Shown here in pieces: positions 25,603 through 48,921 of a DNA stretch of 64,000 nucleotides (position 1 is the first letter of the stretch; the number at the start of each line of letters is the position of its first letter). Made by a program: the position numbers and the translations under genes. Source of the DNA: Isoetes taiwanensis (Eukaryota > Streptophyta > Lycopodiopsida > Isoetales > Isoetaceae); NCBI GenBank assembly GCA_021234155.1, contig JAJEKV010000057.1, forward strand, positions 3,875,821 through 3,939,820. The letters are read 5' to 3'. A model generated the notes under the pieces. That model saw only the letters and a list, made by a program, of their open reading frames with translations, ran no database searches and was not told where the DNA came from.

Positions 25603-26801
25603 TGAGACGTTTCCTGAATCTGTACGATGCTCCCATCGTACAAATACGGGGAATTCCCCTCCGTGGCAACTACATCACCATGGAAAGGCCCTCCATCTAA
25701 CTCAGACCACTTGGGATAGCCAAGTGTTCAGGTGAGGAACATGAAGATGTCATTCGTCCCACGTCCTCTATGGGAATCATATACTGCGGAAGCATGCACA
25801 CATGTTAGCACATAGCTGTCATGCTCAAAATAATATAGCATCACGAGGGGTGGTCCATCCATCATCATCATCTACATGGTAACACAAGTACAAGATACAT
25901 AAACAATATACCATAAATAAGGGCTCTACCTGGGCTCAGACTCCATGGGGTAGACTAACGGTCAGGGCCTGAAGATAACACCAGATAGAGGTATAACATG
26001 GCGTTGGCTGACATAGAACAATGGCTAGGGTAGTCCACTTCATCCGTCCCTCATGTGCACACTCTGTAGATAGGCTGAAACATGCTATGGCGTGATTGTG
26101 GCCTTCCAGAGACACAATCTCATGGGATCACCCTATGAGACTACTCCGGGTTACATCTCCCCAGTCCAATGAGGCAGGTCAGGGAGGCGTCCCCTTCCCA
26201 GCCACAATGGATCCCTAAGTGTACTAGAGAATGCATGCCTCCTTAGCGACCCCCGCATCTGTACCCAACTTGAAGCCTCCAAAATCCATGGGCTGCCTCG
26301 GCGCATACATCGAGACCAGGATGTCCATATAGGCACATCATTATCTTAGTAATACATAAAAGAGAAATTAACCATTCTATCTAATCAGAGAAGGGTTAGC
26401 TGAAGCACAGACTATCTAGGGACTGCCCGATCTCTTGGCTAGAACCATTGTCACGAAAGGCTTCCATTCTTCAAGTCTGGTTGCAGGAGTTGGTAGTCCT
26501 TCCTCCACTCTCCCCAAATTGATTTGGGGCAGAATTGGGGGTAGGGCTCCAATTTTCCCTCCAAACTTAGCAAGTTCTCCCTGGCCAATCGACTTGGACC
26601 AGGTGGCACCGCCTAATTGGCTGACTTTTACTAATTAATAACCTAATTAGGTTATTTACTCACTAATAGTTTAGCATAGCTAATAAAAACCCTTTTAGGT
26701 TAGGCCAAGTTATCCCCTATTGACCCATAAGGGTCTACTTATATCATGGTGACGTGTCATAGTATGTATATGTATATCGTATAAATATATGGAATGCCAC
26801 A
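25603..26801 (-). mobile_element. LTR (minus strand), copy B, with internal deletion
   Basis: Minus strand begins TGTGGCATTCCATATATTTA and ends AACGTCTCA. Collinear with copy A except for a deletion near 26336 that removes about 300 bases. It is the 3' LTR of the gypsy remnant that follows at higher coordinates. Confidence 0.8.
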
Positions 26802-27324: not shown

Positions 27325-28500
27325 TCAACTCTTATATGATTCCTGTTGGACCCATAACACAAAGATTTGAGTTCTGTTGGTTTGCTTATATGCACGATCA
27401 AGGAGAGCCTCAGGCACAATCTCCAATTGATCGTCTGTCATTTCCAGAAGTATCGACAGGTCAAGGATCTCTTCTGGATCGGGGTTATGCTTCTTGAGAA
27501 GACTCATATGAAAGACTTTATGGACCTTCAAATGCGCGGGTAGATTCAACCGGTAGGCCTGAGAACCTATCCTCTCAGTTATCTCAAAGGGTCCCACCCA
27601 TCTAGGTGCAAGCTTCTTGCAATTGCCAATCTTGAGTTTCGCCTGCTTCACCTTGATCTTTAGCCATACAGACTCACCAACTTGAAATTCCCGTGGTGTC
27701 TGATGCCATCGACAAGGCTCTTTTACCAGGCTCTGGCAGCTAACAATACCCTCGAGCTTCCTCGACTATGGCCTACATATCTGTAAGCAATTGTTGAGAC
27801 ACTTCCACCTTGGAAACTGGATTATGCCACGTGTCTGGAGTAAGCCATTGATAGCCATAATTGATCATAAAAGGAGACATCCTTGAAGACTCCTGTTTAG
27901 TACTGTTATACGCAAACTCCACCAAATCAATATAATTTGCCCATGGGATTGCTTATTCCAGACATAATTATGTAGCATATCTTTGATTATGCGATTAGTA
28001 CGCTATGTTTGACCACCCGTCTGCGGGCGGTTATAAGCTGTGCTCATGGCAAGCTTAGTTTGAATAGTGCTAAAGAAATCCTTCTAAAATGCACTAACAA
28101 ACTTAGGATCCCGGTCCGTTATAATGGTACGGAGCATCCCATGAAGGCAAAACACCTCCTTCGTGAACAATAAGGCGGTATCTAATGCAGTATCTGTGGT
28201 CCGACATGGCAAAAAATGCGCCATTTTGTAAAGCTTGTTGACCACCACCATTAAGGCATCAAATCCCCTTGAAGTGCGCGGAAGCTCCACGATGAAATCC
28301 ATGGAAATAACTTCCCATTTTGCATTAAGAACATCTAAGGGTTGCAATTCCCTTGGATGTATAACTGTTCCGCCTTTGTTTGCTGACATATCTGACATTG
28401 CTTAATGCATCGGGCAATGTGTTTCTTCATCTCTAAGCAAAAATAGCTGGAGCGGATCTTAAAATATGTCTTCATAAATCCTGCATGCTTCACTATAGGA
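27325..28500 (-). pseudogene. Ty3/gypsy integrase, decayed
   Basis: Zinc-binding region near 28440-28360 (MKKHIARCIKQCQICQQ, H-H-C-C type), core region 28398-28084 (VISMDFIVELPRTSRGFDA, first catalytic Asp; ITDRDPKFVS, second), and C-terminal end 27651-27325 (PRWVGPFEITERIGSQAY, then VFHMSLLKKHN), which is the conserved GPF/Y-type tail. Stops and shifts between these parts show it is inactive. Confidence 0.85.
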
Positions 28501-28869
28501 TTGTTATGTGTGTCGTGGAGAATGAGCTTGCGAACTCCTGATGTCTCGGGAACACATTTCTTACCCTTGTAATAAAGAAGACTACCTTCCTTTTTATATT
28601 GGCGGAAAGCCTCTCTCTCCTTATCAGTTCTCTTCCTTGGATAATATCTCTTGAAATTCAGGATCTATTGAAAGAGTTCGTTGTATCTGCCTACCAAACT
28701 CGCTGATGAGATAGAAATGCCATTACAATGTGCTCGAATGACTAATGGATGCCTGAAAAGTGCGTCAGCAACAACATTACGTTTGTTCGGCTCATAGACT
28801 GCTTCAAAATCATACTCTTCAGAAACTCCATCCATCGCTGCTGCCTAAGATTGAGGTGGGGTTGCGTGA

Positions 28870-29182
28870 AAATATATTAGAGACTTTGGTGACCTGTATC
28901 CAACTGGAATCGTCTCCTAAGTAGGTAATGTCTCCAAATACGCAAAGCATGCATGATAGCAAGTAATTCCTAGTCATGCGTGGGGTAACGCTGTTCTGCG
29001 TCATTCATCTTTCTAGAATCATAAGCGATTACCCGACCTTCTTGCATCAATACTCAACCTGTGGCGATCTTACTGGTGTCTGTAGACAGCCACTTATCCT
29101 TCTGAGGATCCGGCAAGATAAGAACTGGAGCAGTTGTCAAGGCATCCTTTAATGACTGAAAGTTGGCCTGGACCTTCTCCTT
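28870..29182 (-). pseudogene. Ty3/gypsy RNase H region, decayed
   Basis: After the RT frame the minus strand reads LILPDPQKDKWLSTDTSKI, then (stop) VLMQEGRVIAYDSRKM and YPTHD-stop-ELLAIMHALR-WRHYL, the usual RNase H features. Premature stops lie at positions normally holding sense codons. Confidence 0.7.
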
Positions 29183-29935
29183 CTAGTGTGCCATCCAATC
29201 CCTAACCTTCTCATGTTTTGTAAGGTCCTTAAGAGGTGCGGTAAGCTTAGTAAAGTCCTTAACAAATTTGCGATAATATCCTGCCAACCCTAGAAAACTG
29301 CGGATCTCTGACACGTTCCTTGGGATCGGCCAATCTTTTACTGCTTCAATCTTGGCTGGATCTGTGGCTATTCTCTCAGCAGAAACAATGTGTCCCAAGT
29401 AATCGACCTTAGTGGTTGCATACCTACACTTGGAGAACCTGGCATAAAGTTGATTGCGTCTCAATTTCTGCAAGGCCGACCGAAGATGACGCTCATGGTC
29501 CTCTAAGGTTTTGCTATATATGAGGATATCATCGAAGAAAATGATGACAAAGTCATCAAGATATTCGTGGAAGACATCGTTCATCAATCTCATAAATGTA
29601 GCAAGAGCATTAGTTAGCCCAAATGGCGTAACAGTGAACTCATCATGCCCATGACATGCCCGAAAAGCGAACTTATGGATGTCATCCTCTTTAATTCTTA
29701 TCTGGTGATATCCTGAATGAAGATCAATCTTTGTGAAATACTTAGCTCCTTGCAATTGATTCATCAAGTCATCGGCATGTAATAGAGCATACTGATTCTT
29801 AATCGTATGCTCGTTCAATTGCCTATAATCAATACACATTCTCAAAGTACCATCCTTTTTCTTCACAAACAAAATAGAGGCACCAAAGGGTGCCACATTT
29901 GGTCGAATGAACCCCAACTTGAGAAGCTCTTGCAA
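29183..29935 (-). CDS. Ty3/gypsy reverse transcriptase domain
   Basis: 250 open codons: [44 protein letters not shown] (first Asp), [20 protein letters not shown] (catalytic DD, usually YxDD, here FFDD), [21 protein letters not shown]. The Tyr of the YxDD box is Phe. The upstream neighbour is in the same frame, separated by one TAG (29938-29936) where the family would have a sense codon. Confidence 0.9.
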
Positions 29936-30604
29936 CTACTTCTTAAGCTCTGTCAATTCAGGCGTACTCATTCCGTATGGAGCTTTACTGGTAGGTTTAG
30001 TACCTGGTTCCAAGGTAATTTCACATTCCACTCCTCGGAAAGGTGGCAACCTATGAATCTCATCCGAGAAAAGGTCATGGAATTCTCGAAGTATAGCAGC
30101 TATTTCCATAGGCAAATTCTCAAAAACCTCTTCCTGTTTAGACTTGGCCTCAACTGATGCAAGTCTAACAATACAAGCAACCTGATACTTCTTGATGGCC
30201 TTATCCAACTGACGCAATGAAATATACTGCATAATTGGAATAACTGGTTTACCTGCTATGGTTACTCGAGCTCCATTAGCTGCATTAAAGGTGACTTCTC
30301 GCTTTTCACAATCAATGTTTGCCTTTGCATCAGCCAAGAATTCCATACCCACAATGAGATCACATCGACTAATATTCATAATCTCGGCCCCTAGAGCAAG
30401 GGGTGCTCTTGGCAACTTAATATTCAAATTAATACGTCGACCTTGAGTATGGCGCACGACCCCACTAGCCAGCGTAACTGGACGTGGCTTTGATCTCAAA
30501 GGAGTAAGCTGTAAGGCTTCCGCCATTCTAGGTGAGGCAAAATTATGCGTACTATCCGTATCCATAAGGATGATGAAGGCTTTACAGTCCACTTGGCCAA
30601 TCAT
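29936..30604 (-). pseudogene. Ty3/gypsy protease and linker to RT
   Basis: FIILMDTDSTHNFASPRMA holds the aspartic-protease site, here D-T-D-S instead of the usual D-S-G, then ISRCDLIVGMEFL and VECEITLEPGTKP.SKAPYG leading into RT. The Gly-to-Asp change suggests loss of activity. Same frame as RT apart from the TAG. Confidence 0.8.
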
Positions 30605-31145
30605 GGATATGACAGAAGGTTGAGTATCTGCTTGACCTGTTTCAATAGCAGCATAAATGTGGGACTCACCTTGTACATAGTCTTGCGCCTCATCATCGCA
30701 ACGGTTTTCGGTTCATTTGAGCCCATAACATCATCCCAATCCACTTCGACAAGAGCAGCTTGAGCAACCTGAGTAATGTATGGGCATTCCCGCATACGAT
30801 GTCTCGGTTGGTGTGGTATTAGCAGACTTATCTGGCACAATGAAGAAAACTTTCTTATCTTGTTTCTCGTACCCCGCAGACCAGGGAAGTCCTGGGCTAG
30901 GTGAATGTCCACGATACGATCTATAGCCCCTGTTCTGACCAAAGGTAGAAGGGCATGGCGGCTGGTACTTAGGGGTATCCTCCTCCAAGCTAAGAGATTT
31001 AGCCTCGGCTTCTGCTACTGTTTTGGGATCTATGGCTTAGACCATTTTTCTGAGAATGGGTGATAACCCCTCAATATACCCTTCAATTGCCCTGTATTCA
31101 TTAATTCCTGGATAGGATGGACATCAGTTCTGGGATCAGAAAGCT
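30605..31145 (-). pseudogene. Ty3/gypsy Gag end with zinc knuckle remnant
   Basis: Shifted frames with RHRMRECPYI (the GHxxxxC half of a CCHC zinc knuckle) and, further upstream, ELMNTGQLKGILRGYHP. Beyond about 31145 the sequence switches to a plus-strand transposase, so the 5' part and 5' LTR are missing. Confidence 0.6.
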
Positions 31146-31149
31146 ATTG

Positions 31150-32371
31150 AAGGAAACCCATTTTTACTTAAGTGATGACAAGATTCATGACACTCTTTTT
31201 GTGTAGCACTGTCTTAGAAAGCACAATTCATGGCTTGTATCAAATGGTGTAGAATTCTCCAGGCATATAGTTTGGTCAGATGGTTGTTCTAGCCAATTCA
31301 AATCTGCCCGGCTATTCTATTTCCTACCAAGATATCACCATGAGCTAGGGAAGGAAATAGTATGGAATTTCTTTGGGACAGCCCATGGTAAGGGAGAGCA
31401 TGATGGGCAAGGGACAGTCCTTAAAGGGGCATTCACTAGAGAGCAGCTCAAGTATGATGGGGTGAGATTTAGGGGTGCTGCTGATGCCTGTGAATTCGCA
31501 ACTCGTTGGAATGAAGGTGCCAACAACGGGGACATCAAAAGGTATTATGCTTTCATCTGCTGTATTCTGTTGAGTAATGCTGCCTGTAAACTGTTGTACT
31601 GTGTTGAATAGTGCTTTCATCTGCTTTAAGTGCTGTCTGTGAACTGCTGTAATGTGATAAATAGTGCTGTATTATGCTGTCTGTGAGCTGCAATACTTGT
31701 TGTCTCCTTGCAGGTACTTCTGGGTAATTGGAAAGGATGATGTTGATAGGACAGACCGGCTGGACTGTGCCAGGGTGGAAGGGACCAAGCAAATACACAG
31801 CATCTGGACATACTTGGCCAAATCAAGCACAAGGGTGGCTCATAGAGGTTTAAGTTATTTCTGTGGTTTGAAAGGAAACTGGTCATCTTGTGTGAACAAG
31901 CACAGGTTGAAGAATTGGAAATATGTTATACTAAAGCCAGATAAGTCTACTAGTGAAGGTACTGAAGACGAAATCGATGAGGCATTTTTTGAAGGTGATG
32001 GAGACGAATGGCTTAGTGGAAACATAGAGGAAGGTGATAACTTTGCTGTTATAGCCGAGGAGGGAAATCAGGAGAATGCAGATTTCTATGTGGTGAAATG
32101 TGTTAAGCCGAGGCATATCCTTGACAGAATTGTCAAGGATAGCTGGAGTCAGACCTTCAATGTCGATGAACATGTGTTGGCTAGTTTGTACTATGCTGTC
32201 CAGCCCGATGGTAGTTGGGAGCTACTTGAAGACAAAGGCCTGACCTTCCAGTACAGTCATCACGTATCAGCAATCAAGTTTGAGATGAATCAGATTCCTG
32301 GCACCAACAGATTTTCCCTTGAACAGGCTACTCACCAGATGATCCTTGACAGTCTACCATATGAAGGTTGA
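31150..32371 (+). pseudogene. DDE transposase remnant, two exons
   Basis: Exon 1 (to 31541) reads KETHFYLSDDKIHDTLFV-stop-HCL, then HIVWSDGCSSQFKSARLFYF (probable second catalytic Asp) and NFFGTAHGKGEHDGQGTVLK. Intron 31542-31713 (172 bp, GT..AG, phase 2), exon 2 to the stop at 32371 (YFWVIGKDDVDRTDR ... VKCVKPRHILDRIVKDSW). The in-frame TAG at 31204-31206 is most simply a CAG codon changed by one base. The N-terminal half is gone, replaced by the gypsy remnant. The D-G-C-S-S-Q-F-K box is cognate with D-N-C-S-G-Q-N-K at 14.9 kb, so both belong to one broad transposase clade. Confidence 0.65.
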
Positions 32372-32589
32372 ATATGCTTTGACCTAGTTGTTTTATCATT
32401 TTAACAGGTCTGTAGTTACTTGTTTACTTGTCTCAAATTTTGATGATTGTATTGGAGACAATGCTTGTGAGACAATGTTTGTAGTATTGGACTACTGTAT
32501 TGGAGTATTTTAGTATTGGAGACAATGCTTGTAGTATTGGAGACAATGCTTGATATATATTACAGAAAATTGTAGATTGGAATTCATAA

Positions 32590-32850
32590 CATAGAACAGT
32601 GCTGAACATGTGCTGAACACTGCTGTCATGTGCTGTGGCTTTGCTGGTCGGTGATGGCGAGTGCTGACGTTCATGCTGAGATGCACCTGCCCCATGATCT
32701 CCCTGCCCCCAAAAAAGTGGTGTCTCCTGGCTATCCGCAGCCTTTGCACGGGGACTAGGTGGTTTATCAACCCTGTCCCCAGAAACTACTTTCCTTGTTC
32801 TCCTGCAAAATCAAAAGTGGTGCTACAATTACCTTTGTCTTAAATTTTGA
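32590..32850 (-). repeat. Partial duplicate of the start of the FCP1-like gene at 34 kb
   Basis: Shares with 33850-34050 the stretches GTCTCCTGGCTATC / GTTTCCTGGCTATC, ATCTCCCTGCCCCCAA and CCTTGTTCTCCTGCA in the same order and strand. It holds no open frame of its own. Confidence 0.6.
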
Positions 32851-32928
32851 AGACCTTTATCTGGAATTTTTATGTTGTATTAGAGACATCACTCAAGATT
32901 ACTCAATACTCAAGATTACACAAAGCAA

Positions 32929-34061
32929 TCATACATATATTACAAAAGGGTAGTGTACAATGGTTATTTCATGAGTCATTGAAGTTTTCACCGTGGTTAG
33001 AGTCCTCAGGAATGGTGCCCAACAACTGCCTTCGTACCTCTTCTGGAGCATTGAGGATATAATAGGTCGCGACAAGATAGTTGTTGAGACAGTAATCCAG
33101 CACTGCAACTGTCTCCTTTTCAAACCATGCATCAGTGATGTCTAGCTGTGAGATTGTTTCTTCTACTGCATGAGAAGATAAATACTCCAATGCTGGACAC
33201 ACAAACTTCTGCAAAAAGTTGTCCTCTTCCTGCCCCTTGAAAGGCATAACAGGAACGGTTGTGTGTGCAGGGTTTAGAAACCCTTTGTGTAGGCTATCAT
33301 CTACCAAGAAAATCATACCATGATATTCAGGAAAATCCTCAAGTACAACCTTCAATTCCTTGAAAAAAAGTTGCTTTGCTGTGCTGGTTAGATGCTCGCA
33401 TGCATATAGCACTGCTCTTGACCATATATCTTCAAGAATTTGGTCCGCAAATCTGGGAACAATGCCTCCACCATATCCCGTGTATTCCGAAGTAGAGAAG
33501 CACTCCAGATCACAATATCAAACTCTGCAGTGCCCACTCCACAAACTCATGATACCCTGGTCTGCAAATGAAGTACTTACTTGCAGTTTCCTTTACAACA
33601 TGGTTCGTTTGAGGTGGAGGCAAGAATTTTTGGCCCGTTCTCCTTTGTTGTGTCTGTGCCAGTACACCATTTATGTCAAGCACCATCAATTTCCATCTGG
33701 GTGCCCATCCCTCAACGTTTGCAACCACTGTCAATGTCTGCTGCATTGTGCTTGAAAGTGCTGCAACATGTGCTGGACTCTGCTGGGAAGTGCTATCGAG
33801 ATGTGCTGGACTCTGCTGGGAAGTGCTATCGAGATGTGCTGGACGTTGCTGCGATCTGCTGGACTCTGCTTTAGCTTTGCTACTAGATGATGGAGAGTGC
33901 TGATAGCCATAGTTAGATACATCTGTATTAGTATCTCCCTGCCCCCAATGTATGGGTGTTTCCTGGCTATCAGTAACCCTTGCAGTGGCCCTCCATGCTT
34001 TATCCTCCATTTCCTCATTCACCACCTGCCTTGTTCTCCTGCATGCAAGGATGTGCTCCAA
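32929..34061 (-). pseudogene. Second FCP1/NIF-like phosphatase gene, frameshifted
   Basis: From 34061: a linker with an in-frame 10-residue repeat (SQQSPAHLDS twice), then WKLMVLDINGVLAQTQ (FCP1 motif, nucleophile Asp), KYFICRPGYHEFVEWAL. After a shift near 33520 comes FDIVIWSASLLRNTRDMVE. After another near 33450 come LYACEHLTSTAKQLFFKEL and MIFLVDDSLHKGFLNP (second acidic site), ending at 32969. The layout matches the broken gene at 23.3-25.3 kb (D-[IL]-N-x-V-L, IWS, VDD, LNP). It lies between a transposase and a RING gene and may be their cargo. Phosphatase activity is inferred from the family only. Confidence 0.65.
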
Positions 34062-34290
34062 TTACCAACTGAAACTTGTAGAGAATACACATTCTGAAAT
34101 ATAACAGGATTGCACCTTTTATATGTAATAGGTTGTTTTGGCACTTTGGTTTCTTCGTTATCTGTCTGGGTTCTCTCACTATCCTCATCTTCAGATTCAC
34201 TAAGTACCACTTGTGGATGCCTTCTCCTTCTGCAGGCAAATGCATATTGATCCCTAGGTTAAAACTCCAAACAAAATTATAAGGACACAA
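34015..34290 (-). pseudogene. Probable upstream part of the FCP1-like gene
   Basis: The frame VVLSESEDEDSERTQTDNEE (from about 34210) is acidic, as linkers often are, then VPKQPITYKRCNPVIFQNV. It must shift to join the 34061 frame. A GTAATTGGAG...TGCATGCAG stretch at the join looks like a 27-base intron but is too short to trust. Confidence 0.3.
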
Positions 34291-34399
34291 TGGGGGAAAA
34301 TAAATATATTATGGTATTAAACAAAAACCTTTTAACTGCTCATTTTGGCAAGTCTTGTGCAATCAAAATTGGGCCTGAAACAAGTATGGGAAAATTACA

Positions 34400-36361
34400 T
34401 TAGACTGGGGGTTTTTTCCCTAGTGCGACGTCTATAGGCACGTCCTCATCAACCGAATCATCTGACTCACCCTCACTCTCGGGTTCTGTAATATTTTTGG
34501 TCCTTGACCTTGTGAGCCTAGTGATTCGGGTCACAACCTTGTTGACCTGCTTCTCCACATCTTCAACATCCTTGTCTGCCCCTGCATCAACAGTGTTAGA
34601 GGAGGCCTTTGTAGAGGCTGCTGCAGAATTTGGAACTATATGGTAATTGTCAACATCGTCAGAACTACTGGAATCTGCTTTGGACCGTGTTGGTGTCTTT
34701 AGCACTGTGCTTTCAGGTGCTGCATTGTGCTGCTGACTGCTTGAATCTTGCTGTGCACTGTTTACAGGCGCTTCTAATGTTCCCAATTCAGAAAACAAGC
34801 GTGTACCTTTTTTGGCTGTTCTTGCTTGTAGAGTTCGAGTCCTTGTAGACTTGTGTCCGGGGGTCCTTTTACTAAGAGGTGTTTTAACATGCTTCCTTTT
34901 CCTGTTGCTGTCTAGAGTTGTAGCTACCACCTCATCTATGTCAATTGTCTCAACTATGTGTTTGTTTGCTGCCCCAGCATATAAGGGTTCCTGCTTGATT
35001 GTCTTCCCCAATTCCTCCACTAAGCCTGCTGGAACTGTTTCTGAGCATTCGAGGCAGTATGTCTTCTCCATAAGCAAACTCAGGCAACTGACATGATATA
35101 CGTGGCCACATTTCAGCTTCAGACTGAGGGTATAATCATCCTGGAATGCGAGCTCGCATGTGGAGCATCTCTCCTCATCTCCAATTGGCAACCTGAATGG
35201 CACAGGATAGATGCTCACAAGCTGGCCAGCTCTCTTTGTAAGTTCCCTAAGCCTGTTGACATTCTGTAAATGCTGCTGGGCTTTTGCAAGCTGCACTTCA
35301 TTGTTTGCAACCTCAGCAGCTACAGTGGCCACCTGTTGAACTATCCCGTCATCTACTGGGCCACCCCCCATTTCAAAAAGGGCTTTGAGCATGTACTCTG
35401 CCATGTCTTTCTCTCTCTCTCTCTAAGCGCAGTAGCTCAGCAGAGGCACCAGCATCAGGACCTGTCAGGGCTTGAAGACGTGAGATGTTGTCTTTTATTA
35501 TTTGCAATTTCTCTTGTGAAGCCGAGAAGAAAGTTCCCTTAGCCTGGGACTGAACAACTAGCTCCTTCTTGGAGACTAAATCAGCCTGCTGCGTGTTTAG
35601 GGTTTCCTGCAAAGCTTTGCACATGACTTCCAGGCGTGATATGTTCTTCCCATAAGCCGTGTAAGCTGTTGGGCACATTGCAACGCTCCTAATGGATGGC
35701 CTCCCTTCTAATTTAATACCAGTGCCTCCTGAAACTTGCCTTTCTGCTATGCTTTCAGGTGCTGTGGTTTGCTGAGATTTGCTGGTCTCTGCTCTGCTTG
35801 CTGGAGCACTGCTGGTGGGTTCACATTTAATCTTGCTGTTGTAGACTCTACTCTTTGCTGCAACTGCTGCCCAATTAACCTTGAACTTCTCTGGATCCTG
35901 CTTTGCTCTCTGGCAGTTATTGAATGCAAATAGGTATGATACTGTCTTTCTAACTTCTCTGTTCTTCAATCCGTCCGGGTATATTTTGCTCAGAAGTTCA
36001 ATTAGAGCTTCTTCGTGCTCTGGCCTTACCTTGTCAATAGAAGTTTTGCCAGGAATGACCCCGTTGGTATCCCAAACTTCATTGTACTCTGCTGTAGATA
36101 TGAGATCTGTTCGAAATTGAGAGGGATGAACGCCCTCGTTTGGCAGACCCGCATACGCATGGAAGTCTTCTTCGGTTCGGCAATCAGCCAGGTCCGGTCT
36201 TAAGGGAACGTTTCTTCTGGCCTGGAAGAATGCAAGAAAATCGAATTAACAGGGGACCCTAAACCCATAGAAATTTTGTTTAGTTGCTTTTTGCTTACCC
36301 GGCACATGGCCTCCATTGGAATTACTGCTTGAGCGGGCGGATCAATCGCCTTCTTTACCAT
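34400..36361 (-). CDS. Coiled-coil / RING-finger protein, nearly intact
   Basis: ATG at 36361, exon 1 of 21 codons, intron 36298-36222 (GTAAGC...TTCCAG, 77 bp), then exon 2. Only one break is seen: a two-base slip in a (GA)n run at about 35405-35425 that moves the frame from LERERERH to the frame of DMAEYMLKALFEM. With that allowed the product is about 630 residues: N-terminal unknown region (VRPEHEEALIELLSKIYPDG), coiled coil (NISRLEVMCKALQETL ... KLQIIKDNISRLQAL), a second helix (NNEVQLAKAQQHLQNVNRL), then a RING-like finger (C-S-T-C, 16 residues, C-G-H-x2-H-x2-C, C-L-E-C) at about residues 365-410, and a basic/acidic tail. RING proteins usually act as ubiquitin ligases. The target is unknown. 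Confidence 0.65.
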
Positions 36362-36969
36362 GGTTGATATGTTTGTTTAATGTGGAAATCCGAGAGCACA
36401 AATTCGCGGGTTGCTTCGCCGGAGTAGAGAAAGTTGGGGAAGAGAGATTTGGAAAACACAAATTCGAAAGTTAGTTTGTCTACTAGTTCCAGATTGCAGC
36501 GGGTCGCATTCATTACCGCGGGCGGCAAACAGGTAATGATTGTATAAACGGGTACGGGCTAGACGAAGAGACGGGCAGAAAATAGGTGGTACTATATAGG
36601 TGAAGGGTGGGAAAAAAATGTATGAAGGGTGGAAAAAAATGTATTTTGGGTGCTGGTGCTGGTGCTGGGCTCGCGTTTATTTGCTACCCACCAGCATACT
36701 TTTGCCCATATACAACCGTAAGCACATGAACTCATCTATATATACTTGGACTGTCATATTCTTTTGTTCCAGGCATTAAAAATTTTGAATTTGTTGGCAG
36801 CGATGAGCTCTGGGGACATAGTAACATTTGAAAGCTTTGGCAAAAACCTTATATCAGCACCTGCCTCGAGTCAGTCGATGAGAAGGGGCATATCTCTTCC
36901 ACCAAATATGGGTTGACCCTGTGAGGTTGATGGTGGCAACCTTGCCGATATCCTTCTCTGTCATTCCAT
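36362..36969. other. No gene seen; upstream region of the RING gene
   Basis: Contains a GCTGGTGCTGGTGCTGGG triplet run near 36650-36668 and otherwise nothing recognisable. It probably includes the RING gene promoter and the left boundary of the next element. Confidence 0.45.
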
Positions 36970-37610
36970 AGAACTTGTTGAATTCATGCATCTCATCCAA
37001 ACTCTGGGATGCAGAGGCTTTGACGCACGTTAAGCTAGCACACTATCAGCAGCATGTCAATCCTAGGCTCACAAGCGGCCCACACCAGTACTTGTACACC
37101 CAGCTGCCCATGAAGAAGCGCAGACTTATAGCTTCCATTCGCACGGGGGCACATCGCCTCTGCATTGAAACAGGGCGTTGGGCCCGGGAAGCACGAGAGC
37201 AAAGGCTTTGCCAGTGTTGCCACCAGGGCGCGATTGAGGATGAATGTCATGCCCTCCAGATCTGCCCAGCATTTGCCCGTATCCGAGAGCGATATGTTCG
37301 ATTACTAGTGCCTGGCCAGCCGTTGCATCAGTTATTGACTACGGCGTCAGTGGGTTTGTTGGGGTCATACCTCCAGGAGGTTATGGATGCACGGACTCGT
37401 TTGTGTCCTACGGGACGGTATTGAACTGTCCTATGCAATTGTACAGTGTGCCAGCATGCTTATTACTGCTAAGGTTTTTCCCTCGAAAACCCTTCGGGGC
37501 GGGGGTTTTTTAATCCTGTCAGTAATACGCGTGTTGCTCTCTTTTTGTTTGGGTCCCATAGGCCAATTGGTCTCCGTGGACGCTAAAAACCTATTCTATT
37601 ATATTCTATC
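36970..37610 (+). mobile_element. 3' fragment of a LINE, related to the 54.5-59.9 kb LINE
   Basis: The plus frame 36975-37424 reads KLWDAEALTHVKLAHYQQHV then LIASIRTGAHRLCIETGRW and the zinc motif CQCCHQGAIEDECHALQIC. The related element at 59344 has WDAVTLAQVKTGHYHAH and AIASIRTGSH. The 3' end is CTCCGTGGACGCTAAAAACC(TATTC)n, parallel to CCCGTGGACGTAAAAATTTATC(TTATC)n. Inserted in a minus-strand exon that resumes at 37611. Confidence 0.8.
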
Positions 37611-38010
37611 CAACCATGATTCGGTATCCGAGAACTGGGTCAATTTACGGTTCTCCCAAATGTTTATGATAGCAGAATCTACGATTTTCTGATAATCTTT
37701 CTTCTTGGACTTACCATGACCACCGGCTGACTCAGAGGACTCCGATGGCTCGGATGATTCAGAACTAGTATCAGATCCGTGTGGATGTATGTGGAGCAGG
37801 TACTGGTGCAGGTGGCGATGGTAGCTGATCATTTGGTATAGCAGGAATCTCAGGGCCATATTCTTGCGGTATTGGTGGTGGGTTGTTTCGGAATTACATA
37901 AGCTTGGAGCTCAGTAAGTTGATGCTTCATAAGTATAAGCTCCTATTCTGGAGTGAGACGACCGGGTTGCATGGGTGTCGCCCATGGAGGGGGACGTGCA
38001 CCGTCTAAAA
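37611..38010 (-). pseudogene. Unrecognised exon interrupted by a LINE
   Basis: Minus strand: LTPE-stop-ELILMKHQLTELQAYV, then a Pro-rich run (PSPPAPVPAPHTS), then after a shift SDTSSESSEPSESSESAGGH and KKKDYQKIVDSAIINIWENR before the LINE. The stop is a TAG where CAG would suit. Ser/Glu-rich linker followed by a basic helix; no known family. Confidence 0.3.
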
Positions 38011-38189
38011 TATAGATAAGATTGAGATAAACACAACATTCAAGCATTGTCATAATAACACTATTAATAAAGAAAATACTTGATGTAAGAGTGGAATTTA
38101 GTGTTACATATAAGATAGGGCTCGAATGGACAAACAGAATGTGGAATTTTATTCATAACGAGGTGTTATACATAAACATAGTCAGTTAG

Positions 38190-38818
<629 letters not shown>

Positions 38819-38931: not shown

Positions 38932-40350
38932 TCAAGAGCTAGGTCTTGCATCCTCATCCATCGGCGTAGGAGGTGGAGGTGGCTGGCGGTGTCGAAATGG
39001 TGTCACTTTTGGGCTGATGGTATGGGCAGCGGCGAAAGCAATCCCCGAAGGATATGCCGTGGCCAAAGGAGCGTCTACAAGGAGCTTCACGCTCATCCAT
39101 GGTGCGATATCTAGCCTTAGGACAGTCAAAGCAAACTCCCGTCGCACGAGCACATATGTGAGCGCGCGATGCGGGAGCTTCTTATGTCTGGCTAAGGTGG
39201 ATAACGCACGGAGTGCCCACCATGATGCCTCTGCCTCTGGACTAGATCCCGCGCCACAAAAAGGACCTGCCCCTGCTTAAAAGCTGAAATTAAGAAGAAG
39301 CGGGTGACATAATTTCCCATAGCACTAACCATTGGGATGACAGAGGTGGCTACTTCCTTATCGAGATCCATAGTGACCTCCTCTTCCTTAACTTCTTGCT
39401 TTGCTTCCCTCAGGTGATCTTTGTTGTCATAAAGATCTTCCTCTTCTTCATGAGATTCTGAGGGAATATCCACCATGTTAATGTTTGGGACGTGAGGTCC
39501 CATAGCAACAAAACCTTCTTCAGGTGGTTGTGACAGTGCCTCTTGCAACATAAGGTGCCGCAACTGCAAGAGTGCATCAACTAGCTCAATGGCCTCCTGA
39601 TGAAATTTAAGCAATTGCTGCACCTCAGTAGGGAGCTCTGCTGGGGTGAAATTGATGAAGTCGTCCATGCAACACTCGGCAAGCTCAATAATACATGTGC
39701 CTTCCTTTTGCACTTGAGGTCAGCAACAACATGCTATGTCCACATAATATCCTCCAATAGGAGGTATTCTTGCCCTTGATGGTGGATAACTAGGAGGGCA
39801 TCCAATCCAGTAAGTCATGCTCCTTGATCTCCATGTAGAGGCATCTGCTCTGCTAACTGTTTCCACCGAATAAAGTCATCTTCTCGGACGTACTCATCAT
39901 CTTCCTCATCCGATACCACTGGTGCTTTCCCCCTCTCTGCTGGCAAGTTCTCATCCTCAATGTACTGATCCACGAGTATAGCCAGCGCAAAGTTTACTTC
40001 CAAGTATTGCTGGCCCTCATGCATCATGATGGGTGGGTTCTTGCCCTATCTGAGCTTTCCTGTAAGAATGTTAGAGGCATGTGAATTACCTCCCAACATA
40101 TCTCTCACAATAGCCCTCTCCAAACAAAGGCGGGGTGGGTCCCCTACGGTGATACAGAGGGGTACCATTTCCTGGGTATAGAACTCAAGGAAAGCAGCAT
40201 AGTCAGGGTGAGCCTGCATGTTAGTGATGAGGTCCACCTTTTGGAGCAGAAAAGGCTAAAGGGGGTCGAATGGGACCTAAGGATCCCAATGTTCTCCATC
40301 TTGGTACCATTGGAGGAGGCTAGGGGTCTCCATTGCACAGACAAGTAGTG
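38932..40350 (-). pseudogene. Unrecognised protein gene with several TAG codons and shifts
   Basis: From ATG at about 40335 (METPSLLQWYQDGEHWDP) one frame runs to about 39815, interrupted only by three TAG codons (40279-40277, 40259-40257, 40048-40046): FLLQKVDLITNMQAHPDY, YTQEMVPLCITVGDPPRL, QQYLEVNFALAILVDQYI, SDEEDDEYVREDDFIRW. It shifts to IIELAECCMDDFINFTPAEL and a long acidic region (39713-39192), and again to LARHKKLPHRALTYVLVRRE ... ending at 38932. All three TAGs could be former CAG codons. No known domain. It lies 3' of the histone-fold gene on the same strand. Confidence 0.45.
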
Positions 40351-40533: not shown

Positions 40534-41272
40534 CTAATTATAGTCTCCCTGAATTCTCCTTGCGAGAGCCAAATCTTTTGTCATAATGGTAACCCTCTTG
40601 CCGTGGATCGCATAGAGGTTAGCATTCCCAAAAAGTGCTATCAGGTATCTTCGGCGACCTCCTATAGGGCGATCATAGCAAAGGTTTGGAACTGGAGATC
40701 GGTCCGATACTCCTGTGCTATCTCTCGGACCAAGCACTGGAAGGGAAGCTTCCAGGCTGGAAGGGAAGGGAGGCGGCCACCTATAGGGCGATCATAGCAA
40801 AGGTTTGGAACTGAAGATCGGTCTGATACTCCTGTGCTATCTCTCGGACCAAGCGCTGTATTCTGATACTTCTGGATCTCCTTCAACGCCATGGTATACT
40901 CGGCCTATAACTATGTGGCTTCTTTGGTTGTGTCAGCTTGTTGAGCAGGGTCTTGCCCCTTGAAACCGGCTGGGGTCGGGCGGCGTCCACGCGGTCTTGC
41001 CGATGGGCAGAGCTCGTGGCTTTGCCGATGCCCCCAACTGTCTTGAGTTTCTCCTTATAGATGTTCCCTGACTTATGGGTCGTGGACTTCTGCCTCCGTT
41101 TAACTACAAGGGTTTCAGTCTGCTCGTCATTTTGTTGGGTCTGCTATTGATCCTCATTCTGCTTGGCAAACTCCTCTACTCATTTGCTGCTCTTCCCTTT
41201 TAAGCTCTTGTTGTATGGCATGTGTAGCTGCCATGCGCTCTTCCACCTTTGCAAGGCGACGAGCAATGACCC
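40534..41272 (-). pseudogene. Histone H3-fold C-terminus with long basic tail
   Basis: Minus-strand pieces in order: VVKRRQKSTTHKSG (tail, about 41110), [13 protein letters not shown] (the KKPHRYRPG element at the start of the H3 fold, about 40940), [13 protein letters not shown] (alpha-N, 40892), [20 protein letters not shown] (alpha-1, loop 1), [19 protein letters not shown] (alpha-2), [19 protein letters not shown] and [18 protein letters not shown] (alpha-2/3, stop at 40534). Loop 1 has the canonical H3 length, so it is not a typical CENH3. Damage: frame slips near 40640 and 40900, one TAG where H3 has Gln (40664-40662), and a 119-bp internal duplication. Confidence 0.85.
40661..40899. 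repeat. 119-bp tandem duplication inside the H3 fold
   Basis: CTATAGGGCGATCATAGCAAAG...CAAGC(A/G)CTG occurs twice (from 40662 and from 40781), with about four differences. It duplicates the alpha-1/loop-1 coding part and destroys the fold. Confidence 0.85.
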
Positions 41273-42869
41273 TATGACGTTCTCCTAAAATATACGCTAT
41301 ATATACGTATGTTTCTGGGCCACATCACTGTACAAGTCTACTTTAGTTTGTACACCATAGTAGGTGGAAAAGGGAGCATGGCTAAGTTATTCATATAACT
41401 TAGCCAACCTTAGGCTTAGGGCCATTTCCACATGGCTTCACTCTATTAGGCACCTGCCACATGGAAGCACCCCATTGGAGCCATGTGGCAGTGACATGGA
41501 ACCCTAACCTATAAATGGCCAAAATCTAACCCTAGGCCATTTTTCTGGCTCCAATAGTCTGGGAACCCTTTCTCGAAACTCCGTTTCGAGAACCGTCTGC
41601 TGTGGCATAGCACAACAGCCCCTAGAGCATGTGCACCTCAGTCGGAGTGGGAGCTACTTCGACCCCCTTGAAGGTCGTGGAGATGCTGGGAGCAGGAGGG
41701 AGTTCCTCAGGAGCAGGTATTTGGGTTAGAGTCCTTTGTAGATCATCTGGAAGTTAGGATTCCAGATGAGTTAGCATTTCATATCTCTAGTAAAGTCATC
41801 CTAGAACCCTCAGTCTAGATCTTGAACCCTAACTATAAGTTAGATGCACATGATTAGGTTTAGATGTTATTCTCATTATTTATCATGTTATGTGGATATG
41901 TGATGTTGGTTGATCATGTTTGCTCCTCTTGTATTGGGAAGGGGGGTAGAGACCTAGTAGCCAATACTTAGATGAGCTCCTAGTTTAGACCCCTTAGTTC
42001 CTATTATATGCGACTTGTGCATAGGAACCCACCGGGCTACGGGGGCTATGATGTGACTTAGCACCAGATAACGGGGCTAGAGGCAAAGTGGAGGGAGGTC
42101 CCTACTGAGTGTGGCTACTGGGGACCCACAGCGGGCTAGGCCTATAGCTGGTCACTTCGAGTGGGTCGGGTATGGGTCCGACACCTCCTGGGGCAATAGT
42201 GTCGCCCTGCCTCTCAAGAGTTGCAGGTGTCGGCTCGGCTCTTGTTTTGGGGGGTTCAATCGGGTAAGAATCATGTGTTGCCACGATTCTCTAGCCGCCC
42301 ATGGAACCTCTAGACCCGGGAAGGGGAGATGCAACCCTTCTTGCCTCATCGGACGAGGGAGATGCAACCCGGAGTCTCGATGGATGATGGCATGAGATTG
42401 CGAATCCGGCAGGCTATAGTCATGTCAGAGCCCGATCTAGCCCATCTGCAAAGTATGTACAGGGAGGGGCGGATGGAGTGATCAACCCTAGCTATTGTCT
42501 ATAGCCAGCCCCGCCATTGTTATGACTCGGTCTGCTCTATCTTGTGGCCTAGCCGTCAGTCTACCTCCCCATGAGTCCGAGCTTGGGTAGGAGCTCCCAT
42601 GTTTTATGGCATATGTTTATCTCTATTGTATCTATGGATGGATGGATGTGCTACCCTTCGAGGTAGTTCGATGTATTGTTGTTGCTAGTTCTGACATCGT
42701 TTATGTTTCTGCTGTTATAGGAGCCCATAGGACCTTCGTGTCCCCTTCTCGCATTAGGGATACCCTGCAGTGTGGGATAGACAGAGGGCCCACGCAGTCG
42801 AAGGACCGGATGGGGGATTTCCTATGCAGTGTACGACTGGGCGCCGTATATTTTGTAGCGAGCGTCATA
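41273..42869 (+). mobile_element. Solo LTR inserted in the H3-fold gene
   Basis: Begins TATGACG and ends CGTCATA, a perfect 7-base inverted pair. Flanked by GACCC and GATCC, a likely 5-bp target duplication with one change. No primer site or purine tract lies next to it, so it is a solo LTR. It matches the LTR at 62395-63899 (for example TGTATTGGGAAGGGGGGTAG). A TATA-like CTATAAATGG lies at 41511. On both sides the minus strand encodes coiled-coil of the same type, so it split a gene. Confidence 0.85.
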
Positions 42870-43390
42870 GATCCTTCTCAGCAACTTAGCCTTATATCTA
42901 TTCAGCCTAGCCTGCATATCTAGCTGGATGGTTATCATGACGTCCAGAGTGAGATAGTCTGGTCAACTCTTGGACGCCTCGTCAAATTGATAGGGGGTAA
43001 GGTCAAAGGGATCCCCCGATATGATGGCGTGCCCATCTCCCAAGTAGGTATATTCTCTACCTCTGGCCTTCGGATCTCCCCTCTCCGATTCTCACACGCC
43101 GTCACCTCGAGCGAGCCCTATGATCCTTTCGGCCTCTTCTCAGATGGCCTCGTCTTCGGCAACCTCCACACACTTGACCAGCATCAAGACTTGGTCGGGT
43201 TATTCCACCAAAGTATATCTCCAAGGCATTCAGCTTTAGGAGGAAGCACTCCGACAGGGGGAAGATAGGATAGGGTACCCTATGCTCGGCAGCGAACCGC
43301 TGTACCAACTCTTCTAGGAGGAGGTTGACCTTTCCCAAGTCATCGGCAAGCTTCTTGCCAAGCTTGGCAAAGATCTGGTGGACGCTAAGT
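42870..43390 (-). pseudogene. N-terminal/coiled-coil part of the H3-fold gene
   Basis: Minus strand, in shifting frames: GKVNLLLEELVQRFAAEHRV, MLVKCVEVAEDEAI-stop-EEAERI, GDPFDLTPYQFDEASKS-stop, then DMQARLNRYKAKLLRRI abutting the LTR. Beyond the LTR it resumes as VIARRLAKVEERMAATHAIQ and QELKREEQQ. Three TGA codons interrupt it. The H3 fold is thus the C-terminus of a much longer protein. Confidence 0.5.
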
Positions 43391-44075: not shown

Positions 44076-44088
44076 TGCTCTGATACCA
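44076..44088 (-). other. Primer-binding site (tRNA-iMet type)
   Basis: Minus strand TGGTATCAGAGCA, identical to the plant consensus and to 63901-63913, one base inside the LTR end. Confidence 0.85.
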
Positions 44089-44089
44089 A

Positions 44090-44758
44090 TATGACGCTCC
44101 CTGAATCTATACGATGCTTTCATCATACAAATATGGGGAATCCCCTCCTGTGGCAACTATATCACCATGGAAAGGCTCTTCGTCTAACTCGGACCACTTG
44201 GGATGGCCAAATGTCCAGGTGAGGAACACGGAGGTGTCATACGTCACACATCCTCTATGGAAATCCTATACAACGAAAGTGTACATACATGTTAGCACAT
44301 AGCAATCATGCTCAAAATAATATACCACCACAAGGGGTGGTCCATCCATCATCATCATCTACATGGTAACACAAGTACAAAATACATAAGCAATATACCA
44401 TAAATAAGGGCTCTACCTTGGGCCCAAACTCCATGGGGTCGATTGACGGTCAAGGCCTCAAGATAACAGTAGACAGAGGTACAACATGGCATTGGCTGGC
44501 ATAGAACAATGGCTAGGGTAGTCCACTCCATTCGCCCCTCCTGTGCACACTTTGCAGATAGGCTGAAACATGCTATGGCATGATTGTAGTCTTCCCGAGA
44601 TGCAATCTCATGGGATCACCCTATGAGACTACTCCGGGTTACATCTCCCTGGTCCGATGAGGCAGGTCAGGGAGGCGTTCTCTTCTCGGCCACAATGGAT
44701 CCCCTGGGGTGTACTAGAGAATGCGTGCCTCCTTAGCGACCCCCGCATCTGTACCTGA
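44090..44758 (-). mobile_element. Truncated LTR (minus strand, 5' LTR), copy C
   Basis: Ends CGTCATA next to the primer site. Similar along its length to the PBS-proximal part of copies A and B (CCATGGAAAGGC..., TGTTAGCACATAGCAATCAT). Homology stops at about 44758, where unrelated sequence begins, so its first half is lost. Confidence 0.8.
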
Positions 44759-44999
44759 TTGCAACATATTGTTGTAGGCGTGAGAGAGGATGAAAGTTAC
44801 ATGAATCACATGAATCATCTGTATACTATTTTAATGGCCCTTTGGGGTGACCTAGGTTCGATTCTTGGAGGGCCTTCAACCATTATATATTTTGATAGAA
44901 TTACGGTTTAACTTGTAATAATATGTGACATTATACTCGACGTAAATACTGATACAATCGTAACCTCCACGTGAAAAAAGAAAATGATGTCATGTAGCT

Positions 45000-47230
45000 T
45001 GGGGGCTTGAATAGTGGTAGTTGAAGGCCAGACAATGCATTTAGAATAATCTTCTAAAACCATTTTTGAAAGTTTGAAAGTTTGCTACCACTTAAATAAT
45101 CTTCTAACAACATTTTTGAAAGTTTGAAAGTTTGCTACTAATGGTAGTTGAAGACCACAATCACAGATAACAAATAACACATTTACAATGATCTTCTAGC
45201 AACATTTTGAAGTCTTGCTATCATTTTTAGTAGTACTAAGGTCGGGCCACCAAATTGGGCAAGAAGGCATAGCAACATTCAAAGTCAACAGGACGTTTCT
45301 TCTCATCTTGCAGTGTAGGGTATAGTGATAAGTTAAGATAAGAGCACCATGTGGAGGTCGTCAAATTGTAAGCAAGCGGAGGAAGAGTGCCGAAAGTCAA
45401 GCTCTTGTACCAAGAGGAGAAGATGAGACAGTCACCAACTAATTGCACTTTCAAGTCAGTGTCAATATCAACACACCAACTGTCCCCAAATGCATTCTCG
45501 ACGCTCACACGTGCCAAGGGCTTCCAACACCTAGTGGTCTTCGTGGACGATGAAAACCCATTCATAGTACCAAGCCATGCAGACCGGGTCATAGGCTGCA
45601 ACTGACTGCTCCACCTCTTCTCTTTCTTCAACAAAAACATTATTTACCACAAAAGGCTACATTTGAACAGAAGCCCTACATCATCGATTGTAGGGTGGCT
45701 ATCAGAATTAAAGCCTGGTCCAGTTTGACATATCCCAAGTTAAGAATCATACTGTGCTACTGCAATCAGGCTTGCTGAGCTACCCAACTCTTGCCAGCAA
45801 TGGTATGATATAAGAATATAGCTGCAATTTTTCATGTCATACTCGAAAGACATGGGAAGGTAGGGGAGACGAAAGCCAGCTCCAAAACAGGGGGGAGCTG
45901 GATGTAAAATCTTCCACTGGTTTGTGATAGGGTTTCCAATTATGAATGTAAGGCATTTCTTATCCTCTTTAAGCTCAGCACAAACTAGGCCATTGGAAGG
46001 GTAGGCCTAGAGGGGACGTAAGGAGGTATCATAAGTGCCAAAAGGGCAATGACGAGACAAATACCTCGTTCTCCAAAGTTGGGTGTGCAATCTTTTGGTC
46101 GAGTTGTGGTCGTAAAAGCCTAAATCCTTATGTTTCCTTGAGACATGAATCCTTACAAGCACTACTACCCAAACGTCGCCTTCTTTATCTTCAAGCACTT
46201 GCCTCCAAAGTGCTACAAACAGTTGAGATAAGATTAGATCATATCATGATTTGCAGACACATCGTGCCCTGAATAGGCTATGCAGATCAAGCTTTGCTAA
46301 GATCACAAGCACCATATTGGTCCCTACAAAGCACTCAAAGTCGCAACACGCTTCCTCCATTTTCAAACGAGTGTTACCTATCAAAATATCTGCAGTGGCT
46401 GTCAATTATGCTATTTGTTTTTTGACATGCCAGTCATTGCACGTTGCATTTTGCATTTTGATATTATATTAACAGCTACATAATCAGGAAGAATTACGCA
46501 ATAATTGCACATTGCATTTTGATATGCTGTTGGTATAAAACTGAAACGCACCCTGGATGCTTTCTAAATCGAAATATATAAGTTTGTGAAAGAACAGTGA
46601 ACGCCTTTAAACATGCACCTTGGGATTAAGTATCTTCTTGTAGATCTTATGGTAAGGGCTTCAATACCAGATAAAGAAGTGTATCAAGATGGCAGGGCAA
46701 AAATTAAAATTGTTTAAAGCCCCACAACCTCAAGTTCTTGGAGCAAAAGAGGGAAGCAAAAGGATTCAAGCAAGTATGGGCTTTCGAAAGATGGGCTTCT
46801 AATGCTAGACCTTAATGCTACTTCAAAATAAAAAGTTTCACGAAATAAAAAGTTTCAAAACATACCTGCACAAAGCTCGCGAAACGATCTTTAAATCCGC
46901 TTTAAGTTAATGTAATCTCGGTGGAATATCTCTGCCCAAAACGTGATCGAAATTTGACGGAGCTTGATCGGAGCTTAAACCCGAAATTACATATATTCAT
47001 AAAAGACTAGGCTATTATATAATTTTTGCTGCCTAAAAAAAGAAAGAAAGCGAAGATGTTTTATTTTTATTTTTAGGCCTAGTTGAAGGTGTTTTTTTGT
47101 ACAAGGCTAAACTTTCTCGATTAAAATTCTATTATTTTTGTAACTTAGCTTGCAAGCTTTTTCACCTCTCTTTCAAGAATGATATATTTGCATGATATGA
47201 ATGTGTTTCTTTCTACATTTGCGTTAGGGT
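45000..47230. repeat. Segmental duplication, copy 1
   Basis: Collinear with 48760-51360: shared GGCCAGACAATGCATTTAGA at the left edge, the F-box gene, CCTCAAGTTCTTGGAGC (46730 / 50873), and CAAGCTTTTTCACCT...TTTCAAGAATGATAT at the right edge (47154 / 51299). Several indels distinguish the copies. Confidence 0.85.
45236..46360 (-). pseudogene. F-box protein gene, copy 1 (dead)
   Basis: ATG at 46360 (MEEACCDFECFVGTNMVLVI). F-box region: VILAKLDLHSIFRARCVCKS then a TGA where copy 2 has Trp (46246-46244). A second Trp is TAG (46009-46007), and CAA in copy 2 is TAA here (45742-45740). About 180 bp present in copy 2 (49246-49428) are absent. The C-terminus (TSTWCSYLN, LQDEKKRPVDFECCYAFL) ends at 45236. 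F-box proteins select targets for SCF ubiquitin ligases; the C-terminal half looks kelch/FBA-like but I cannot assign blades. Confidence 0.75.
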
Positions 47231-48386: not shown

Positions 48387-48921
48387 ATTTTACATGCACA
48401 GTAATAACATCTACAATAGGAACAAATGTTTGCACTGGAAATACCGTTGTAGATTAGCTTTATTCCGGATCCCAGCCAAGCCAAATCCATTGCAAATAAA
48501 GTTGAACGGGAACTAAACAGTCTGCACCGTAAGCCTTTTAAATGCCTCAACTGTTTGCCTTTCTCCTGACATCCAATCAACATTAAGAAATACAAGTACT
48601 GTCAATTAATCATGGGGAACCAAAATAGATCCCCCACAAGAAATGTCAGATGTCAGAAAGCAAATTGAATTTTTACAAGCTCCTCGATATTTCTCACAGA
48701 ACTAAAATACAGGATGAGATTCATTAGGCAAAACATTCTAGGCTGACCAGAAAGTTGGAAGGCCAGACAATGCATTTAGAATAATTTTCTAACAACATTT
48801 TTGAAAGTTTGAAACTTTGCTACTAGTGGTAGTTGAAGACCACAATCACAGATAACAGATAATGCATTTACAATAATCTTCTAGCAACATTTTGAAGTCT
48901 TATTGATCATGTTTAGTGTTA

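Follow-up and report, generated by a model that had tools for sequence, protein, structure and literature searches.

A Ty3/gypsy retrotransposon of Isoetes taiwanensis with a histone H3 core fused to a long element-encoded N-terminus

Background

The subject of this work is a Ty3/gypsy long terminal repeat (LTR) retrotransposon of the plant Isoetes taiwanensis (Lycopodiopsida) whose first open reading frame (ORF), called ORF1 here, encodes a histone H3 core, and of which a decayed copy lies in a 64,000-nucleotide stretch of contig JAJEKV010000057.1 (positions 3,875,821 to 3,939,820 of the forward strand; hereafter the window). Among the closest described systems are the fungal hAT elements of Pyrenophora tritici-repentis (H3L) and Pseudocercospora fijiensis, in which an H3 coding sequence has likewise been amplified in a mobile element (PMC3538342, PMC6710886). 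In Pyrenophora, transcripts suggested that a chimeric H3L protein is expressed (PMC3538342). The fungal elements are DNA transposons, present in tens to hundreds of copies that closely resemble one another or are inactivated by repeat-induced point mutation, whereas the Isoetes element is an LTR retrotransposon with an N-terminal extension of more than 300 residues, several diverged families and signs of purifying selection.

Viral singlet histones, such as bracovirus H4 and xenomavirus H3 (PMC9145170, PMC5423620), are likewise borne by a parasite and combine a host-like fold with a changed or longer N-terminal tail, but they belong to DNA viruses, and the xenomavirus tail is 35 residues longer than that of H3.2, not more than 300; the word retrotransposon is absent from the main text of PMC9145170. 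Plant chromoviruses and other Ty3/gypsy elements with extra ORFs share with the Isoetes element the LTRs, an iMet-type primer-binding site (PBS), the series gag, protease (PR), reverse transcriptase (RT), RNase H (RH) and integrase (INT), and a chromodomain (PMC6317226, PMC2864245, PMC12786077). The extra ORFs described in these three papers are of unknown function, and no histone-bearing one was found in the available parts of their text. Arabidopsis H3.3 and MGH3/HTR10 have a core similar to that of ORF1, and MGH3 is an example of a DDM1-resistant variant that can act as a placeholder nucleosome (PMC10529913); unlike MGH3, ORF1 has T80 unchanged, has an element-specific domain in place of the tail and is borne by a mobile element. 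No LTR retrotransposon with a histone gene was among the best-ranked papers listed in searches of the PMC literature, whose coverage leaves out most subscription journals and all preprints, and the main texts of the genome papers on Isoetes sinensis and I. taiwanensis do not contain the word histone.

Intact element copies encoding an H3 fusion protein

Intact copies of the element in the genome of I. taiwanensis encode H3 fused to a long extra protein. The search covered the assembly from which the window comes (1,658,258,908 bases in 1110 contigs). The Pfam Histone profile PF00125 was scored on the best 150 of 8,705 first-look candidates and matched all 150, ordinary H3 genes among them; many lie in open frames longer than 400 residues. 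The main sample of 20 stretches of 10 kb (L009-L028) was picked from these matches for frame length. ORF1 is uninterrupted in all 20 and ends with the usual H3 C-terminus in 19, the ORF of L012 running on. Its predicted product has 411-459 residues and consists of an N-domain of about 196 residues, a charged linker, a basic segment of about 65 residues and the H3 core. Three main families are represented in this sample (A with 12 copies, B with 7 and C with 1), and five more family C copies are among a later set, L045-L052.

A second search used the ORF1 of L024 (411 residues) as query, and 101 of 11,077 first-look candidates were scored; the first-look figures of both searches are loose counts and not copy numbers. 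The N-domain and the H3 core stand in one frame in all 101 scored candidates (start within residue 45, reach to at least residue 364). The match spans residues 1-411 in 84 of them, 69 are stop-free, and 56 are both full length and stop-free. At eight loci chosen by the rank of the N-domain alone (L033-L040, which include L018 and L021 a second time), H3-core sequence lies downstream every time, with slips in some, including L037 and L040. H3 sequence is also present in each of the eight further copies fetched for N-domain matches in long frames (L045-L052): L052 contains one stop and one slip; the core of L051 has lost sequence in frame, so that L051 does not line up in the residue table and its entries there were disregarded; and L045, L046, L048, L049 and L050 are incomplete because the fetched stretches end within them.

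An earlier note on the window, made from its letters alone, had proposed an H3 with an added body, borne by a transposon and with intact relatives elsewhere in the genome. The joined parts in all scored candidates and the 69 stop-free matches support this, and ORF1 is a repeated part of one element, lying between the LTRs in all four copies for which both were fetched. Neither of the outcomes that the note had named as fatal, that the two parts never occur together in other copies or that the H3 part is a simple processed copy of a normal H3 gene, was observed.

Structure of the element

In the four copies examined, the unit is bounded by LTRs of about 1.6 kb, which are 93.7-96.9% identical over the aligned pieces, leaving out two aligned pieces (190 and 102 bp) that lie outside the LTRs. 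Their ends are TG..CA, with TGTGACGTTCC at the start and AGCGTCACA at the end, or nearly so, and 5-bp target site duplications (TSDs) are clear in three of the four copies (CAATC in L010, GTGGC in L015 and GGAAA in L018). The PBS TGGTATCAGAGC, which we take to be of the iMet type, is exact in 13 of the 20 copies of the main sample. ORF1 lies between the 5' LTR and gag, with no long ORF before it; within the 20 stretches ORF2 follows downstream in 19, ORF3 in 17 and gag in 16, and some stretches end before pol. Pfam identified the Ty3 capsid, protease, RT (7.3e-39), RNase H and integrase domains in L010, where the order gag, PR, RT, RH, INT holds; the other stretches have gag, PR and RT in this order as far as they reach. 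Both the LTRs with their TSDs and this domain order place the element in Ty3/gypsy. An H3 transduplication of the hAT type, in which a transposon with terminal inverted repeats bears H3, was considered and rejected, the element having LTRs and RT.

A CCHC-type motif (CYRCMRPGH..QNC) is present in the gag ORF itself, with a weak Pfam zinc-knuckle match below the cut-off (E 0.005). A chromodomain ends the pol frame of L010, continued in L029 (PF00385, E 6.5e-9, L029:1-348), so that the chromovirus feature of a chromodomain at the integrase C-terminus is present in the one copy tested and also in the window remnant. Compared by eye with HP1, this chromodomain presumably keeps only one of the three aromatic cage sites. 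It thereby resembles type II of PMC6317226, which has one of three. An intact ORF2 of about 430-470 residues accompanies the ORF1 type; it gave no match in Pfam or PDB (in PDB none below E 0.5). ORF3 has no obvious ATG and starts after a possible splice acceptor, and ORF2 and ORF3 may therefore be one spliced gene.

The H3 core

PF00125 matches four ORF1 proteins with E values from 2.6e-38 to 1.9e-43. Identity of the cores to the host H3.3 gene L043 is 84-90%, and at least 85% in all 22 complete cores; in sequence they show the H3 fold from alpha-N to alpha-3 with H3 loop lengths. Contact residues are kept in nearly all copies, and the residues that serve pairing with H4 and between H3 and H3' are conserved. 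Two replacements are common to the element cores: all 26 copies have T107A, and I124L stands in 22 of the 23 in which that residue is present. The sequence comparisons make the link to H3.3 appear weak; H87 is found in all seven B copies and in L050, F87 is found in A and C, and position 31, where plant H3.3 has its signature T31, has no counterpart in the ORF1 proteins.

The earlier note had described loop 1 as of H3 length, and the L024 core does align to H3 gap-free over 99 residues, loop 1 included. The same alignment speaks against the note's hint at CENH3, which was rejected as an identity of the core, there being no loop-1 insertion and 84-90% identity to host H3.3. The AEDYL motif behind that hint can be read in the window across a frame slip only and is AEDT followed by a stop in frame; since host H3 genes already have AEAYL, AEDYL is just one residue off ordinary H3.

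With host H3 residues 1-70 as query, 150 of 3,184 candidates were scored and 16 gave full-length matches of 99-100% identity, the next match being at E 5e-16 and 63% identity; host H3 genes with introns nearer the start would escape this query. One of the 16, L044, ceases to match H3 beyond about residue 70, probably because of an intron. At L041:2-373 lies another H3-like core (RKPHRYRPG..ARRIRGETR), which is a little nearer to host H3 (90%) but has both T107A and I124L.

The N-terminal extension

The N-domains of A and B are 32-37% identical to that of C, and the linker is Q-rich in A and, by eye, charged and helix-like in B. The best PDB match of the N-domain has an E value of 0.13 only, and its derivation from gag or ORF2 was rejected, no profile match being found. 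In viral contigs 108 pattern hits were obtained, among which tblastn identified no relative. None of the 28 copies compared has ARTKQ or AARKS (for L041 the comparison covered only 27 residues upstream of the core), and ORF1 thus does not have the modifiable H3 tail ARTKQTARKS..AARKS. The likeness of the basic segment to the H3 tail is one of composition only. Alignments to the host tail are on average no better than those of shuffled segments, the mean fraction of shuffles that reach the tail score being 0.19 in A (12 copies), 0.44 in B (7), 0.59 in C (6) and 0.15 in D (1), with L051 and L041 left out, and a true tail remnant was rejected. An ARK[S/T] motif in five of six family C copies (L024, L045-L049) is a possible mimic of the H3K9/K27 site.

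Selection and exchange between lineages

Pooled Nei-Gojobori ratios of nonsynonymous to synonymous differences (pN/pS) in the core are 0.058 in A (12 copies), 0.019 in B (7) and 0.061 in C (6, partly truncated). The choice of intact copies biases these values towards conservation; four B copies chosen by the N-domain only, regardless of H3, also give 0.019. Between families and against host H3 the core has a pS of 0.80-0.93, near saturation, and a pN of about 0.09-0.12; the divergence from host H3 is at a pS of about 0.92, which also counters recent conversion tracts from host H3. Because synonymous sites are saturated and replacements few, the bias alone cannot explain the conservation, and within families the core is, by these comparisons, under strong purifying selection. 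The region before the core is less conserved (pN/pS 0.24 in A and 0.20 in B, between-family pN 0.47-0.49).

A maximum likelihood tree of 34 core rows, 25 of them different, over 94 columns contains a branch (93/86) on one side of which fall all 11 rows of cellular H3, and A (99/96), B (97/94) and C (95/86) each form a group. Taken with T107A and I124L, the tree from this short alignment favours a single capture of H3 by the elements. The histories of the other parts conflict with that of ORF1. L010 of family A and L022 of family B have gag 96% identical (pS 0.31) and N-domains 31% identical (pS 0.87), while L018 and L022, both of family B, have N-domains 89% and gag 53% identical. In each of the 18 copies of families A and B that have ORF2, its type agrees with that of ORF1, as assigned by the best-matching piece and with the query loci L013 and L022 counted; the assignment of L018 has a narrow margin (57 vs 51%). 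These conflicting histories of ORF1, or ORF1-ORF2, and gag-pol indicate exchange between elements and suggest that recombination between element lineages is frequent, and ORF1 and ORF2 apparently move together, as one recombining unit, from one gag-pol lineage to another.

The element copy in the window

The Ty3/gypsy copy in the window is dead and retains a chromodomain remnant where its integrase ends (Table 1). Six-frame translation of the minus strand at about 43389-40540 gives the H3 fold and, upstream of it, protein pieces such as ARRLAKVEERMAATHAIQQELKREEQQM and DMQARLNRYKAKLLRRI, scattered over the frames by stops and slips, and tblastn with the intact L024 ORF1 matches far above chance at 41119-40772 (E 1e-20) and 43389-42873 (E 1e-28). 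The H3 pieces are thus where the earlier note had placed them, and the note was equally right that the copy is dead: besides the stops and slips, an 87-bp core segment is directly duplicated with 94% identity, and an antisense solo LTR, with the TSD-like GACCC/GATCC (4 of 5 letters the same), separates the N-domain piece from the linker. Of the coiled-coil body described in the note the added upstream body holds; the piece at 43389-42873 is the conserved domain of about 196 residues and not a coiled coil, and the charged linker is only a part of the region upstream of the core. After ORF1 the order is ORF2, ORF3, gag, protease, RT, integrase and chromodomain remnant, which matches that of the intact relatives from the PBS (44088-44077) through the chromodomain remnant at 27361.

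Table 1. Features of the element copy in the window
Feature	Positions	Strand	Basis or remark
5' LTR similarity	about 44093-44765	-	sequence match
Primer-binding site TGGTATCAGAGC	44077..44088	-	adjoins 3' end of 5' LTR
ORF1 conserved N-domain, decayed	42873..43389	-	tblastn, L024 ORF1 residues 79-262, E 1e-28
Solo LTR of related element, splits ORF1	41273..42869	+	about 75% identity to L010/L024 LTRs over about 320 bp
ORF1 charged linker and basic segment, decayed	40925..41272	-	six-frame translation, tblastn
ORF1 histone H3 core, alpha-N to alpha-3, decayed, TAG stop and slips	40540..40924	-	six-frame translation, tblastn
Internal duplication, 87-bp alpha-1/alpha-2 segment	40653..40858	-	40653-40739 and 40772-40858
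ORF2, decayed	38986..40348	-	match to element queries; intact relatives without Pfam or PDB match
ORF3 remnant	38219..38453	-	match to element queries
gag 5' part, decayed	36707..38035	-	match to element queries
Likely insertion between two gag parts (inferred)	31112..36706		no match to element queries used
gag end, protease, reverse transcriptase	29303..31111	-	match to element queries
RNase H and integrase	27520..29299	-	match to element queries
Integrase C-terminus and chromodomain start	27361..27519	-	sequence match
Candidate 3' LTR	25606..26271	-	sequence match

Elsewhere in the window a further LTR of the same kind (507-1622, minus strand, 83-84% identical) is followed by the PBS-like TGGTATCGAGCC, and a perfect 276-bp tandem duplication lies at 3282-3840. 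Upstream of the element, 45019-47216 and 48753-51364 are two similar blocks (81-93%) of a different repeat. An open frame of 387 residues at 54982-56142 has no Pfam match, and near it, at 57783-58433, there is a weak RT match slightly under the cut-off. No RNA families at gathering score and no tRNAs were found in the window.

Discussion

We favour, with a probability of roughly 0.55, the reading that ORF1 encodes a replacement H3, lacking the ordinary modifiable tail, which would enter nucleosomes and shield the chromatin of the element from silencing. It draws on a core kept as H3 needs, on the loss of the tail for H3K9 and H3K27 methylation and on findings for DDM1 and MGH3 in PMC10529913, according to which nucleosomes block the DNA methyltransferase unless DDM1 remodels them, DDM1 promotes the replacement of H3.3 by H3.1, the variant MGH3, with T80 changed to V, resists DDM1, and H87 confers H3.3 assembly specificity in Arabidopsis. 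That bracovirus H4 joins host nucleosomes (PMC5423620) is a precedent. ORF1 is very probably made as a protein, which would pair with host H4 and stand in for H3; its entry into nucleosomes or H3-H4 dimers, in family B perhaps along the H3.3 route, is a probable next step. The element's own N-terminus, which has no ARKS site in families A and B, would then replace the normal H3 tail, and the N-domain would probably be an element-specific recruiter. Nucleosomes on element cDNA or on new insertions would be without H3K4, K9 and K27 methylation at the usual sites, which would delay silencing by the host; that evading silencing is the main benefit we propose only tentatively. The element may form a chromatin type of its own, and it is conceivable, at a similarly tentative level, that a self-made chromatin identity, an element-specific H3 N-terminus of 300 residues traded as a module, resists or redirects plant heterochromatin.

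A number of observations weigh against this reading. T80 is unchanged in all readable copies, so the DDM1-resistance route of MGH3 is not copied; together with F87 in families A and C and with motifs resembling the tail in A, C and D, this argues against the element simply copying the MGH3 route. The motifs in the basic segment are ARK[S/T], found in five of six copies of C and one of two of D (0 of 12 in A, 0 of 7 in B), and [S/T]GGK, in 11 of 12 A copies; several weaker matches of the host-tail query also extend into query residues 3-20, and with these partial motifs modification of the tail type could still take place. The cores of A, C and E are equidistant from host H3.3 and other host H3, only those of B and D being slightly nearer H3.3, and in PDB the H3.3 match beats the next H3 by one bit only. 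An N-terminal extension of more than 300 residues might hinder chromatin assembly. The selection of L009-L028 favours intact copies and gives no estimate of the intact share, a short section of the N-domain in L017 and L019 seems to be frame-shifted, no ORF2 match accompanies the intact ORF1 of L010, and the TSD of L024 (GTGACC, 6 letters) is not clear.

ORF1 nucleosomes or H3-H4 dimers could instead mark landing sites to which the element's integrase would be directed by way of its chromodomain or of the N-domain. The L010 pol frame (continued in L029) unites both features in one element, and chromodomains direct elements to heterochromatin (PMC12786077), but only one of the three cage sites is kept, the partner of type II chromodomains is not identified (PMC6317226), and the conflicting histories of gag and ORF1 reveal no tight pairing; we regard targeting as unlikely, both as an explanation of ORF1 and as a step by which its protein would recruit or target, for instance through the integrase chromodomain. 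Somewhat less likely again is packaging, in which the H3 core and basic segment would bind RNA or cDNA in a virus-like particle or pre-integration complex and form no nucleosome. In keeping with packaging, no other long ORF stands between the LTR and ORF1, and the ORF1 segment is very basic; the conserved pairing residues for H4 and H3-H3' would be useless there, gag already has its CCHC-type motif, and the N-domain has no profile match to gag. The same low likelihood applies to nucleic acid packaging as a step of the mechanism.

Passive gene capture (transduplication) without function for the element is known for H3 in fungi (PMC6710886, PMC3538342), and we consider it very improbable here in view of the saturated synonymous sites with few replacements, the constant position in the element, the joint frame in every scored candidate and the sharing of T107A and I124L by several families. 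A host family of H3 variant or CENH3 genes with elements inserted nearby, for which the long N-terminal extensions and AED-like residues that occur in CENH3 might speak, is hardly credible with ORF1 between LTR and gag in the same order at many places, LTR-bounded copies repeated and a loop 1 of H3 length.

Conclusions

If the ORF1 protein enters nucleosomes, the element would be a natural test of the role of the H3 tail in transposon silencing, with the same core but without the tail, in a plant in which few H3 genes were found, and with very many element copies. Mobile elements would then, if the reading of a replacement H3 is true, counter silencing at the nucleosome itself and not by way of suppressors of small RNAs or DNA methylation.

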